Source: Clostridia bacterium (GTDB taxonomy: Bacteria > Bacillota > Clostridia > Oscillospirales > QAMX01). From it: a DNA stretch of 40,545 nt. The stretch spans positions 1 to 40,545 of the forward strand of contig JAFXIT010000005.1 in NCBI GenBank assembly GCA_017532825.1, in the 5' to 3' direction. The notes under the pieces were generated by a model. That model had not been told where the DNA came from. It worked only from the letters and a program-made list of their open reading frames with translations, and did not search any database. A program made the position numbers and the translations under genes. The number at the start of each line of letters is the position of its first letter. Within the stretch, counting starts at the first letter, position 1. Positions 31,767 through 36,649 of the stretch are shown piece by piece.

Positions 31767-32675
31767 ATGGCAAAAAAACTGCTTTTTATAGTTAATCCGT
31801 ATTCTGGCAAGGGACGTCTGTCCTCCAAGATACTGGGGATAGTGGATATGTTTACAAAAAACGGCTATGACGTTACCCTCTATCCCACCCAAAAACGGGG
31901 AGATGCTACCGAGGTAGCCGTTCGTCTTGCCGAAGGTTTCGACCGTGTGGTATGTGCCGGCGGAGACGGGACACTCAATGAGGTCGTCAACGGATATATG
32001 AACAAAGGCGTACCGATGCCGCCGTTGGGTTATATTCCCTGCGGAACCACCAACGATTTCTCCAAAACGCTCAAGATACCCCGTGATGCGGAAGCTGCGG
32101 CCGAGATCGCCGTTACGGGTGAGCCGTTTCCCTGCGACGTGGGACGCTTCAACGATTCGCATTTTATCTACAGTGCGGTGTTCGGAGCCTTCAGTGACGT
32201 GCCCTACATAACGCCCCAAAGCACTAAAAGCCTTCTTGGGCATGCTGCCTACGTTTTAAAGGGGATAGAACGTCTTTCCAGCCTTAAGCGCTATACCCTT
32301 GAGATAGAGCGTGAAGGTGAAACGATAAGCGGAGATTTTATCCTTGGCATGGTTACGAATTCCGAGTCGGTCGCAGGCTTTAAAAAGCTTGCAGGGCTGG
32401 ACGTTTCTCTCGACGACGGCCTTTTTGAGGTGCTTTTAATAAAAATGCCAAACTCCCTGCAGGATCTTTACGGTATAGCAAATGCGCTTCTGGCACATAA
32501 GATGGATTCCTCGGGTATATATTCCTTCCGTGCCGCATCCCTTAAAATACGCTCCGAGGAGCCGCTTTCATGGACGCTTGACGGAGAATTCGGCGGTGAA
32601 CACCGTCAAATGCAGATAGATACCGTTCCGGGAGCTGTAAGGTACGTGGTAAAGGATCACCTGGAAGGCAGATAA
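31767..32675 (+). CDS. Diacylglycerol kinase family lipid kinase (YegS/BmrU/DgkB type)
   Basis: The 302-residue protein phosphorylates a lipid such as diacylglycerol. It has the N-terminal IVNPYSGKGR motif, the catalytic GGDGTLNEVVNGY loop, GYIPCGTTNDFSKTL, and the C-terminal beta-sandwich ending DGEFGGEHRQMQI. Typical length for the DAGK_cat family. The bacterial version recycles diacylglycerol from lipoteichoic acid synthesis, or acts on other lipids; the exact substrate is not visible. Its last 19 bases overlap, tail to tail, the substrate-binding protein gene. Confidence 0.93.
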   Translation: MAKKLLFIVNPYSGKGRLSSKILGIVDMFTKNGYDVTLYPTQKRGDATEVAVRLAEGFDRVVCAGGDGTLNEVVNGYMNKGVPMPPLGYIPCGTTNDFSKTLKIPRDAEAAAEIAVTGEPFPCDVGRFNDSHFIYSAVFGAFSDVPYITPQSTKSLLGHAAYVLKGIERLSSLKRYTLEIEREGETISGDFILGMVTNSESVAGFKKLAGLDVSLDDGLFEVLLIKMPNSLQDLYGIANALLAHKMDSSGIYSFRAASLKIRSEEPLSWTLDGEFGGEHRQMQIDTVPGAVRYVVKDHLEGR

Positions 32676-33457
32676 ACTATATACTGATTGCAGGTGTAAT
32701 AGGGGTCTGTAAAGCCTATTGATGCATCGTGACTGTCGGGCTTGCTGAACGCTGATATTACGATATCGACAGTTCCTGCGGCCAATGACGGCAACAGGCC
32801 GTCTCGGTCCAGGTTGATTATTTCGAGGGTATATCCGCCCTTGCGTGCGATATATTTTGCTATCTCGATATCCATTCCGCAGACTCTTCCGCTGTTGTCT
32901 ACGTATTCAAACGGGGGGAAGTCGGCGCTTGTGCCGAGGACTACGGTACCGTTTTTGCCCGTTACGTCGTCTGTGACGCCGTTCTCCTGCATATCAGCGG
33001 GAAGCCCTACAAACCTATCGGCTATCTCATCGAGAGTTCCCTTGTTTTTAAGCTCGGTTAGGGCCACGAGGACAAGTCCGTACAGATCGGTGTCCTGCGT
33101 TCTGAGCGCAACGACGAAGTCGGACGTTCCGAAAACGGGTGATGCCGTGTAGGCGAGATCCATATTGGAAAGAGTGATGCTCTTTGCAAGACGGTAATCC
33201 GTCATAATATAGTCGATATCTCCGTTTGTAAGGGCGGATACCATTTCCTCCTGGGTGTTAAAGACGAACACCGCAGAGCCGTTGATGTCGGATGCATATA
33301 CCGTTGCGGCGCTGCCGGAAAGCACTCCGATGCGCCCCTGCGACAGATCGTCCGGGGTTATTTTCGTGGCTTTCTGGGTGTCTGAGGAACAACCGCTCAA
33401 AAGAAGAAATACCGATATTATGAGTATTACGGTGAGGCTGACAGCACTTTTTTTCAT
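32657..33457 (-). CDS. Substrate-binding lipoprotein with circularly permuted SBP_bac_3 fold
   Basis: The 266-residue protein has a lipoprotein signal (LSGC, Cys23). The order of its parts is reversed from the usual family 3 solute-binding protein. Residues 38-150 match the second lobe and C-terminal helix (LSQGRIGVLSGSAATVY, ALTNGDIDYIMTDYRLAKS, LTELKNKGTLDEIADRFVG). A linker (151-168) follows, and residues 169-264 match the first lobe (VLGTSADFPPFEYVDNSGR, GMDIEIAKYIA, GLLPSLAAGTVDIVISAFSK, FTDPYYTCNQYIV) and stop at the hinge. The usual carboxylate-binding Arg after the PE/D motif appears to be missing (PDSHD). No permease or ATPase gene is adjacent. AAGGATG precedes the ATG. It may be a sensor or orphan binding protein. 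Confidence 0.82.
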   Translation of the reverse strand: MKKSAVSLTVILIISVFLLLSGCSSDTQKATKITPDDLSQGRIGVLSGSAATVYASDINGSAVFVFNTQEEMVSALTNGDIDYIMTDYRLAKSITLSNMDLAYTASPVFGTSDFVVALRTQDTDLYGLVLVALTELKNKGTLDEIADRFVGLPADMQENGVTDDVTGKNGTVVLGTSADFPPFEYVDNSGRVCGMDIEIAKYIARKGGYTLEIINLDRDGLLPSLAAGTVDIVISAFSKPDSHDASIGFTDPYYTCNQYIVYLPSR

Positions 33458-33487
33458 TTAAAACCATCCTTTGTTCGTGACGTCTAT

Positions 33488-33590: not shown

Positions 33591-34427
33591 ATGAAGATCG
33601 GAGTTGTTTCCAGGAGTTTTTCAGCCGAGAAGACAAGCGCAGAGATCGCTGCCGAAATGGCCCTTAAGGGCTTTGACAGCACCGAGGTGTGCTTTAACTC
33701 CCTTGGAGCAAAATTCTGGTGCTACAACGGAAGAACGGATCTTTCCGGTCTTACCGACGAGCTTGCGGCATCCGTCATTTCCGACTACCGTAGGGCCGGA
33801 ATAGATACGGTATCCCTGGGAGTCTTTTCAAACCTGATGGAGCCCGATGCGAATGAGCTCGAGGCTGTGTTTGCTCGTTATGAAAGGTTTATGCGTATTG
33901 CTGCCGACAACGGCGTGCCTGCAGTATCTACGGAGACCGGTTTTGTTCCCGGTAAGCGCGGAATAAATACGGATACCTATCAATCCGATCACGACTATTT
34001 TCTCAAAAACATGAGGCGCCTTTGCAACATGGCCGAGGGCTATGGGGTAAAGATCGCCTATGAGCCCTGTGTCCTGGACGTTTTGCCGAGTGCAAAGCGA
34101 GTACGGGATTTTATAAACGAGGTGGGCTCGGACAGTCTCGGAATACTCCTCGACCCCGCAAACCTCATAGCAAACTCCGACGAAGAGGATATGTTTAAAT
34201 ACCTTGCACCCTACGTTGTTTACTTTCACGGTAAGGACAGAAAGGTAAATGACACCTACGGGCGTCTGGTCGGGGACGGAGATATTGACTGGGTGAAGTT
34301 TTTGAGCCTCTACCACCGTCATTGCGAGGGAAAGCCGTTTATACTTGAATACGTAAACGATGATAACTGCGCTGAAATAAGACAGCGTGTTCTTGACTAT
34401 GACAGGAAGGCAACGGGAAATGCTTGA
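33591..34427 (+). CDS. Sugar phosphate isomerase/epimerase family protein
   Basis: The 278-residue protein is a xylose-isomerase-like TIM barrel (AP_endonuc_2 family). Visible core elements are MKIGVVSRSF at strand 1, GVPAVSTETGF, YGVKIAYEPCVLDVLPS (metal Glu), LGILLDPANLIAN (metal Asp), VVYFHGKDRK (metal His), and ILEYVND (last Glu). Substrates in this family range from keto-sugars to inositols. GAGAGGGAAG precedes the ATG. It overlaps the AraC gene by 8 bases, consistent with joint control. Confidence 0.88.
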   Translation: MKIGVVSRSFSAEKTSAEIAAEMALKGFDSTEVCFNSLGAKFWCYNGRTDLSGLTDELAASVISDYRRAGIDTVSLGVFSNLMEPDANELEAVFARYERFMRIAADNGVPAVSTETGFVPGKRGINTDTYQSDHDYFLKNMRRLCNMAEGYGVKIAYEPCVLDVLPSAKRVRDFINEVGSDSLGILLDPANLIANSDEEDMFKYLAPYVVYFHGKDRKVNDTYGRLVGDGDIDWVKFLSLYHRHCEGKPFILEYVNDDNCAEIRQRVLDYDRKATGNA

Positions 34428-35283
34428 TAGAAAACTGACTGCCAATAAGGTCGGCCTTGGTCCCGAACGCCCCATAAGACTCATAGATACCGAGCATCTT
34501 GGTCGGGTCGAATACCATAGCCACGATTTCTGTGAGCTGGTATACGTCAAGGAAGGGTATACGGTCCACTACTACGGCGGATACGCAACCGTCCTCACAG
34601 AGGGCGACCTTTTTGCCGTAAGTCCGGGGGTTATGCATGCATATACGGGCCTGCACTACACCAAGGTCTATAACTGTGTATTTTTGCCCGAGTTTCTCGG
34701 TGACAGTATAAAGCCGCTTTCGGAACTTACGGGGGTAAGCGGACTGTTCGGAACGACCGACGACGTGGGATGGATAAGGATGCACCTTGATACCAGGGAC
34801 CGTATGAAGGTCATTTCCATAATGGACAAGATAGCCGCCGAGGAGAATGAAGCCCTGCCGGGGCATATCGAGATGCAACGTGGGCTCCTTGTTCAGCTGC
34901 TTGTTCTGCTTTCAAGAATCTATATATCCCAACAGGGAGAAGAAACCACCGAGCATTCGCACATGAACTACGTTATAAAGGCTCTTTCGTACATAGAGGA
35001 AAACTATCGGGAGAATATCGATCTGTCGACTATGGCCGAGCGTGTCGGAATATCTCCGGATTACCTCTCAAGGCAGTTTAAAAAAGCCGTTGGTGTGTCG
35101 CCTGTGGTATTTTTGCGGGGATGCCGCTTTGCGCGGGCGATGGAGCTTATTCGTACCGAGCCGGAAAAAAGCATGGAGGAGATATCTTCCGAGATAGGGT
35201 ATAAGTATCTCAGCCATTTTTCAAGAGAATTCAGAGTCTTTACGGGGATGACACCCAGCGAATTTAAGAAAACGGTGATTTGA
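34420..35283 (+). CDS. AraC family transcriptional regulator
   Basis: The 287-residue protein has an N-terminal cupin sensor domain (VEYHSHDFCELVYVKEGYTVHYYGG, with YATVLTEGDLFAVSPGVMHAY) and a C-terminal double helix-turn-helix (NIDLSTMAERVGISPDYLSRQFKKAVGVSPV, then EISSEIGYKYLSHFSREFRVFTGMTPSEFK). Such proteins usually bind a sugar and activate adjacent catabolic genes. The start at 34420 has GGAAGG about 10 bases upstream and overlaps the epimerase stop by 8 bases. It likely controls the epimerase-sulfatase genes and perhaps the divergent binding-protein gene. Confidence 0.93.
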   Translation: MLDRKLTANKVGLGPERPIRLIDTEHLGRVEYHSHDFCELVYVKEGYTVHYYGGYATVLTEGDLFAVSPGVMHAYTGLHYTKVYNCVFLPEFLGDSIKPLSELTGVSGLFGTTDDVGWIRMHLDTRDRMKVISIMDKIAAEENEALPGHIEMQRGLLVQLLVLLSRIYISQQGEETTEHSHMNYVIKALSYIEENYRENIDLSTMAERVGISPDYLSRQFKKAVGVSPVVFLRGCRFARAMELIRTEPEKSMEEISSEIGYKYLSHFSREFRVFTGMTPSEFKKTVI

Positions 35284-35287
35284 GTCA

Positions 35288-36649
35288 ATGCAGAAAAATT
35301 TTTTGTTTATCGTTGCCGATCAGTTCAGAGCCGACGCCTTGGGTGCGGCAGGAAAATACAAAATATCTACCCCTAACCTTGACCGTCTGGCCGCAGAGGG
35401 CGTGAGATTTACACAGGCATATACTCCCTTGCCGGTGTGCGCACCTGCAAGACAGGCTATGTTTACCGGTAAAAACCCCGACAGCACGGGTGCATTCTGG
35501 AACTACGGCTTTTTCAGCGCTTCCTCTCTTTGCCCGGGAGATTACTGGAGCGGGGAGCTGTCCGATGCAGGATACGATACCGTTTTTGTCGGAAAATGGA
35601 ACGTTTCGCAGAATTATAAGCCGACCGATCTTGGATATAATGAGTATATATCCAACGATGAATATAATAGGATGAAAAAAGAAAAATATCCCGAGGTCAC
35701 CCGCCCCGATTGGTTCGGAGCGACAAGCCCCATACCTCTGGAGGATTCCAAGACGCATTGGCTTGCATCGAGGGTATGCGAAAAGATAGAGCGCTTTGCC
35801 CATAGCGGTCGTCCATGGCATATCCACCTTGCCTACACCGAGCCGCATCTTCCAAACGAGCCGTCCGAGCCCTTTGCCTCTATGTACGATCCCGATGAGA
35901 TCCTTCCCTGGGACGGTGTGGGAGACAGCCTGGAGGGTAAGCCCTATATTCAGCGTCAGCAACTCAGAAGCTGGGGTATAGAAAGTCTTACCTGGGATGA
36001 CTGGAAGGCGTCTGTTGCACGGTATTATGCGATGGTAAGCCAGATCGACGACAGCATCGGAATAATACTAAAAGCTCTTGAGCGGACAGGGCAGTTAGAA
36101 AATACCGTGATAGTTTTTACCGCCGACCACGGAGATATGTGCGGAAGCCGAGGGATGCTGGATAAGCACTACGTGCTCTACGACGACGTGGTACGGATAC
36201 CCTTTATCGTCCGCGGAGCGGGGCAGGGAGTATGCGACGATATGATATCGCTTATCGACCTTGCGCCGAGCGTCGAGGATCTTTTCGGGCTTGAGGTACA
36301 TACCGATTATCACGGAAGGTCCTTCCGTCCGCTTCTTGACGGAGAGCCGCCTGCGGGTTGGAGAAAAGAGGTGCTCTCGTCCTCCAACGGTCAGCAGTTC
36401 GGCTTTTATAACCAAAGGATGCTTCGGGATAAGGAGTACAAATATATCTGGAATCTTACCGATATAGACGAGCTTTATGACCTTAAAAACGATCCTGCAG
36501 AGAAGATAAATCTTGCGCAAAGCCCCGAATACTCCGAGATACTGAATGGTATGCGGAGAAGACTTTATGTCCTTTTGAAGCAGCAGGATGATCCGTTTGT
36601 CGGGTCGGGATGGCTTGACAGACAGCTTTTAGAGGGCAGGCAGGAATAA
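35288..36649 (+). CDS. Sulfatase (Cys-type, S1 family)
   Basis: This arylsulfatase-like enzyme would remove sulfate from a glycan or other ester. The 453-residue protein has D11 in FIVADQFRADALG, the sulfatase signature C-x-P-x-R (CAPAR, Cys51), and FTADHGDMCGSRGMLDKH near residue 280. The active Cys must be converted to formylglycine, in anaerobes usually by a radical SAM maturase (anSME). No anSME-like gene is in this window; the radical SAM gene at 975 is a different family. There is no signal peptide, so it appears cytoplasmic. It starts 4 bases after the AraC stop and the ribosome-binding site is weak, suggesting coupling. Confidence 0.92.
   Translation: MQKNFLFIVADQFRADALGAAGKYKISTPNLDRLAAEGVRFTQAYTPLPVCAPARQAMFTGKNPDSTGAFWNYGFFSASSLCPGDYWSGELSDAGYDTVFVGKWNVSQNYKPTDLGYNEYISNDEYNRMKKEKYPEVTRPDWFGATSPIPLEDSKTHWLASRVCEKIERFAHSGRPWHIHLAYTEPHLPNEPSEPFASMYDPDEILPWDGVGDSLEGKPYIQRQQLRSWGIESLTWDDWKASVARYYAMVSQIDDSIGIILKALERTGQLENTVIVFTADHGDMCGSRGMLDKHYVLYDDVVRIPFIVRGAGQGVCDDMISLIDLAPSVEDLFGLEVHTDYHGRSFRPLLDGEPPAGWRKEVLSSSNGQQFGFYNQRMLRDKEYKYIWNLTDIDELYDLKNDPAEKINLAQSPEYSEILNGMRRRLYVLLKQQDDPFVGSGWLDRQLLEGRQE

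Follow-up and report, generated by a model that had tools for sequence, protein, structure and literature searches.

The stretch of DNA analysed here (the window, 40,545 nucleotides from a Clostridia bacterium) carries at 32657-33457 an intact open reading frame of 266 amino acids, which we call P0001 and which encodes a permuted lipoprotein of the SBP_bac_3 type (Pfam PF00497, E 1.1e-27). The gene and all the features of it described below lie on the reverse strand. Direct reading of the sequence places a Shine-Dalgarno-like site, AAAGGATGG, at 33464-33472, 6 nt 5' of the ATG, and a signal peptide at residues 1-22 (33392-33457), with the lipobox LLSG/C and then Cys23. The 3' end of the gene shares 19 bp with a diacylglycerol-kinase-like gene (31767-32675) that converges on it, and upstream of it a divergent TIM-barrel gene starts at 33591. 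The flanks are occupied by other genes or by intergenic DNA, with neither space nor sequence for a leftover lobe on either side. The remaining neighbours are an AraC regulator and a sulfatase, and none of the adjoining genes was identified as coding for a receptor, a signalling kinase or a chemotaxis protein; in the one relative whose surroundings were inspected, no shared gene neighbourhood was seen. Behind the TIM-barrel gene, which is isomerase-like, the AraC-type regulator (34387-35283) is directly followed by the sulfatase/sulfoglucosamine hydrolase-like gene (35288-36649), and the three genes are possibly a cluster for the utilisation of sugar sulfates.

P0001 scores 96.8 bits against the Pfam SBP_bac_3 model (curated cut-off, 26.4), in two stretches, of which the better covers residues 173-262. 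When searched with phmmer against the PDB, residues 168-262 aligned with residues 8-102 (lobe 1) of Thermotoga maritima ArgBP and residues 34-149 with its residues 112-226 (lobe 2 and C-terminal helices), the two stretches being in exchanged order. Segment HMMs for lobe 1 (N), for lobe 2 (M) and for the second hinge strand with the last helices (C), derived from 21 canonical proteins drawn from many phyla, matched P0001 in the order M (37-102), C (122-146) and N (172-258); the score for lobe 1 was 100.6 bits, and those for lobe 2 (17.5 bits) and for C (6.5 bits) were both weak. Scanned by rotation against a canonical full-length profile, the protein as it stands reached 123 bits over 101 positions and, when rotated, 173 bits over 228 positions, with an optimum at residue 153, within the linker; a canonical protein used as a control scored best unrotated. 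The scan rules out a linear, full-length alignment to SBP_bac_3. In phmmer, segment HMMs and rotation, then, the chain order differs from the family order of lobe 1, lobe 2 and C-terminal helices, and we regard it as practically certain that the lobe order of P0001 is permuted.

Read from the N-terminus, the mature protein begins with lobe 2 (residues 34-105, 33143-33358), normally second, as located by the lobe-2 HMM and the second ArgBP stretch. Next come the second hinge strand and the C-terminal helices (residues 110-149, 33011-33130), supported by the C HMM and by helices 101-116 and 119-127 of the model described below, and then a linker from the old C-terminus to the old N-terminus (residues 150-169, 32951-33010), defined by the gap between the C and N segments. 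Lobe 1 (residues 170-256, 32690-32950), normally first, is here last, on the evidence of its HMM and of ArgBP domain 1, and the chain stops at the hinge with the first hinge strand and the C-terminus (residues 257-266, 32660-32689; strand 232-240 of the model). The initial annotation, which had described an amino-acid-type binding lipoprotein with reversed lobes, cut at the hinge and with its old ends joined by a short linker, is borne out on each of these points, the cut being at hinge 1, the linker about 20 residues long and the rotated sequence clearly better aligned to the profile than the linear one. Across 84 permuted ORFs the gap between C and N has a median of 23 residues (range 17-30).

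Given a 46-row alignment of permuted relatives, AlphaFold2 predicted for Cys23-Arg266 one compact model (mean pLDDT 92.0, pTM 0.85) and not two separate incomplete folds, as the proposed permutation implies. The model and its matches to type II binding proteins predict a two-lobed type II fold, and very probably P0001 is a single permuted fold. Foldseek ranked the tandem SBD1-SBD2 chain of GlnPQ first and OpuAC next, and a second structural aligner put OpuAC clearly on top (Z 13.4, rmsd 4.1, 203 of 265 residues in chain order). Ordinary SBP_bac_3 structures gave Z values of about 10 over about 165 residues in chain order, with about 9% identity, alignments that we read as lobes probably matched crosswise by virtue of pseudo-symmetry; lobe 1 alone compared with ArgBP domain 1 gave 39% identity and an rmsd of 2.4 Å. 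The predicted chain would thus have the topology of OpuAC and carry the sequence of SBP_bac_3. Among the solved structures listed there was no single permuted SBP_bac_3 unit, and the matches were two swapped stretches, except for the tandem GlnPQ structure 6h30. The structural matches listed contained no type I (cluster B) protein such as TpMglB-2, an absence that excludes nothing.

Both lobes of P0001 are clearly homologous to SBP_bac_3 proteins (PF00497; LAOBP, HisJ, GlnH, TmArgBP), with up to 48% identity to canonical proteins in lobe 1 and a common predicted type II two-lobed fold. Unlike canonical members, P0001 has rotated lobes, a replaced Phe52/Arg77 pair and no permease in cis. Its model shares a rotated chain topology with the Bacillus subtilis glycine/proline betaine-binding protein OpuAC (2b4l, 2b4m, 3chg, 5nxx), but the two are only 13% identical and the permutation of OpuAC is apparently a separate one, in another cluster. 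Assignment of P0001 to the OpuAC family by sequence was rejected, as PF04069 gave 15 bits, under its cut-off of 21.2, over residues 198-238 only. Circular permutation is described among glycine betaine-binding proteins, OpuAC being one of them (PMC2395249), and TpMglB-2/Tp0684 of Treponema pallidum ('cluster Bc'), a naturally permuted ABC binding protein tethered to the membrane, has kept its ligand binding (PMC4990184). TpMglB-2, however, has a type I/cluster B glucose-binding fold and another cut site, and no homology to it was detected; the sequence homology of P0001 points to SBP_bac_3 and not to the cluster B sugar-binding fold.

The order M-C-N (lobe 2 first) was verified in 84 distinct ORFs from public genomes, a count that includes P0001, the second permuted protein of the same genome (L002) and a few permease fusions. 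Cultured carriers include Blautia schinkii DSM 10518, Acetitomaculum ruminis DSM 5522, Anaeromassilibacillus An172 and Ruminobacter amylophilus DSM 1361, and the proteins occur as free lipoproteins, as permease fusions and as tandem arrays, (MCN)2-4. P0001 is not singular: it is one of a large group of permuted proteins, and the majority of these resemble normal importer components. The arrays in which lobe 2 comes first and lobe 1 last (L015, L016, L039, L054, L067, L069 and L174) are mostly fused directly to a permease. Permuted proteins were also seen in Succinivibrionaceae, including the cultured R. amylophilus, and in Fibrobacter (L079, 5965-7491; L104, 2888-4438; L068; L087), which suggests transfer among rumen bacteria; the Fibrobacter copies had no permease within the flank examined. 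Others (L055, L056, L060, L078 and L086) come from metagenome-assembled genomes labelled as methanogens, Spirochaetaceae, Prevotellaceae or Alphaproteobacteria, where binning contamination is the likely explanation, the other being transfer.

Two further cut sites were found. In 25 distinct proteins the order is C-N-M, with the cut at the second hinge, and for nearly all of them a PAAT permease is encoded in the same locus; this order, seen at L020, L028, L034, L142-L145, L147, L150-L164 and L175, is common in Clostridia. In three others the cut lies inside lobe 2, giving the second half of M, then C, N and the first half of M, with positions 26-67 of the lobe-2 HMM matched first and 1-22 last; the genes (L178, 1393-2199; L180, 654-1550; L182, 1396-2214) have a permease and an ATPase adjacent. 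The SBP_bac_3 family thus occurs in four cyclic orders, the canonical one included. Different cut sites imply separate rearrangements, whatever the tree shows. We give nearly even weight to a broader reading, in which the family was permuted at least three separate times (at hinge 1, at hinge 2 and inside lobe 2), all hinge rotations coexist as working importers in gut Bacillota, and a subset of the hinge-1 permutants, including P0001, was released from transport and had its pocket rebuilt, giving rise to orphan receptors.

Our searches for homologues with the same order and for tandem-domain relatives recovered both kinds. The tandems occur in both phases, NMC-NMC and MCN-MCN, and are often fused to a permease, and the lineages that carry MCN and MCN-MCN genes also have NMC-NMC permease fusions. 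Since a tandem that loses its outer N and its outer MC leaves exactly MCN, an origin from a tandem duplicate whose outer halves were lost, as the initial annotation proposed, is a plausible and reasonable one. The tandem GlnPQ structure was the only listed PDB chain to align with P0001 in a single unbroken stretch, residues 27-260 matching 96-326 across the border between SBD1 and SBD2. GlnPQ and other SBP-permease fusions are among the closest known systems, and this alignment shows how a tandem could yield MCN, although GlnPQ itself, unlike P0001, consists of two complete canonical domains in one permease-fused chain. A tree of the re-ordered columns requires several changes, and one common origin for the hinge-1 permutants as a whole is neither demonstrated by it nor rejected (AU p = 0.12); the tree is too weak to count events within one order, with 47 of its 123 inner branches unresolved and P0001 on a long branch. 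No close orthologue of P0001 was found, the best identity being 36%. Its lobe 1 is closer to canonical than to permuted proteins (mean identity 40% versus 32%), and its lobe 2 is closer to permuted than to canonical ones (31% versus 24%). Recombination of lobes from different sources is left open by these identities, for which unequal rates are the simpler reading.

The ligand pocket of P0001 departs from that of its relatives at the positions that, in established LAOBP numbering, stack on the ligand (F52) and bind its carboxylate (R77). The residue at the F52 position, Phe in 119 of 120 aligned relatives, is Arg218 (32804-32806), and that at the R77 position, Arg in 119 of 120, is His243 (32729-32731), so the carboxylate-binding arginine that had been suspected lost is indeed replaced. 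Leu46 (33320-33322) stands at LAOBP position 117, where 118 of 120 relatives have Gln, and Ala50 (33308-33310) at T121, where 86% have Thr; Asp87 (33197-33199; D161, the position that binds the amino group) and Ser238 (S72) are kept. As LAOBP itself has Leu at 117, the change to Leu46 alone signals altered specificity and not loss. Of the 12 positions that are at least 97% identical in about 120 relatives P0001 keeps nine, and the three that it changes (Arg218, His243 and Leu46) are all in the pocket. We consider it likely that its ligand specificity has changed.

The Phe/Arg pair is kept in the permuted importer relatives of P0001. Among hinge-1 permutants that have the pair, a permease is adjacent or fused in 70 of 74, compared with none of the four that lack it (P0001, L011, L022 and L035); the Fisher p value of 5e-5 is uncorrected for relatedness, the four cases are not independent of it, and flank lengths differ, being about 1.4 kb for some. 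The initial annotation had pointed out that no ABC permease is adjacent to P0001, and we found neither a PAAT permease nor its ATPase anywhere in the window. A search of the genome found only two SBP_bac_3 proteins, P0001 and L002, both of them permuted, and one PAAT permease, on contig 25. L002 (267 aa, 28% identical to P0001) is encoded 72 bp before this permease, which is followed by the ATPase. Completeness of the genome is 91%, so that another permease may have gone undetected.

Our best explanation, which we hold to be probably correct as a whole, is that P0001 is a permuted SBP_bac_3-derived lipoprotein, a paralogue without an operon, with a rebuilt pocket and a partner in trans. In this view a lipid anchor holds P0001 outside the cytoplasm as a Venus-flytrap binding protein that descends from SBP_bac_3 and is circularly permuted at hinge 1, its chain running through lobe 2, the second hinge strand, the C-terminal helices, the linker, lobe 1 and the first hinge strand. 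It is predicted to fold into the ordinary two-lobed shape, anchored via lobe 2, and to be able to close in the manner of other type II binding proteins. Its ancestor, to judge from the relatives and their operons, would have been a permuted importer protein working with an amino-acid ABC permease, of which P0001 would be a duplicated paralogue that departed from its operon and whose pocket was rebuilt (Phe to Arg218, Arg to His243, Gln to Leu46 and Thr to Ala50). Because the pocket was rebuilt while other near-invariant positions were kept, P0001 has most likely retained the ability to close around a small molecule, but one other than an ordinary alpha-amino acid bound through the usual arginine. 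It may then present the bound ligand, or itself in the closed state, to a partner whose gene lies elsewhere, which could be the only PAAT permease detected in the genome, acting in trans, or a membrane receptor.

These two partners correspond to two different roles, which we consider about equally likely. Sharing of one permease by several binding proteins is an established arrangement, and the presence in this genome of a single detected PAAT permease and two permuted SBP_bac_3 proteins would suit an accessory importer component, a second binding protein of different selectivity feeding the contig-25 permease in trans. We hold this role tentatively, since P0001 is so distant from the cognate binding protein L002 and lacks the Phe/Arg pair that nearly all permease-linked relatives keep. 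The same remodelled pocket, together with the absence of a permease in cis, is what P0001 has in common with three other permuted proteins, and would suit instead, as the initial annotation suggested, an orphan sensor or signalling lipoprotein whose closed flytrap docks on a membrane receptor and not on a permease. Binding proteins are reported to stimulate transmembrane receptors besides transporters (PMC9602780). A sensor is possible, short of probable, given that none of the genes next to P0001 was recognised as one for a receptor, a kinase or chemotaxis and that no conserved neighbourhood emerged from the one relative inspected.

The long branch, the weak lobe-2 and C-helix scores and the lack of a close orthologue could also be those of a decaying paralogue, a drifting copy of a permuted importer protein whose operon was lost. 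We think this unlikely, as the ORF is intact and has both a lipobox and a ribosome site, near-invariant structural residues have been conserved, the changes land on pocket positions and the fold is predicted with high confidence. That P0001 is no permutation at all but an assembly chimera or a frame-broken tandem gene is extremely improbable. Relatives do have tandem SBP genes, one of them frame-broken: in L063 (4723-6514), a tandem permuted SBP-permease gene, the frame changes after the first C segment, by true pseudogenization or by sequencing error. Nevertheless, the flanks of P0001 hold no leftover lobe, and an assembly artefact or broken tandem gene is ruled out by the recurrence of the same order in about 80 verified genes, cultured strains included. 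The Shine-Dalgarno-like site and these other proteins argue that the order is due neither to chance nor to assembly error.

Few bacterial proteins are as common as amino-acid binding proteins, which are favourite scaffolds for biosensors, and to our knowledge their lobe order has been treated as fixed. No account of permuted SBP_bac_3 proteins turned up in the open-licence literature searched. The lobe-swapped SBP_bac_3 protein is thus a widespread variant, previously undescribed as far as could be searched, natural permutation being already known in other binding-protein clusters. Family assignment that is blind to order has probably hidden such proteins under ordinary names. Four cyclic orders of one sequence family beside the same permease family offer a natural experiment, in which the effects of topology, of the tethering point and of hinge continuity on ligand closure and handover can be compared. 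The permuted proteins are also ready-made scaffolds with their termini at the hinge, as sensor builders wish, and the orphans with rebuilt pockets are candidates for binding unknown ligands in gut bacteria.
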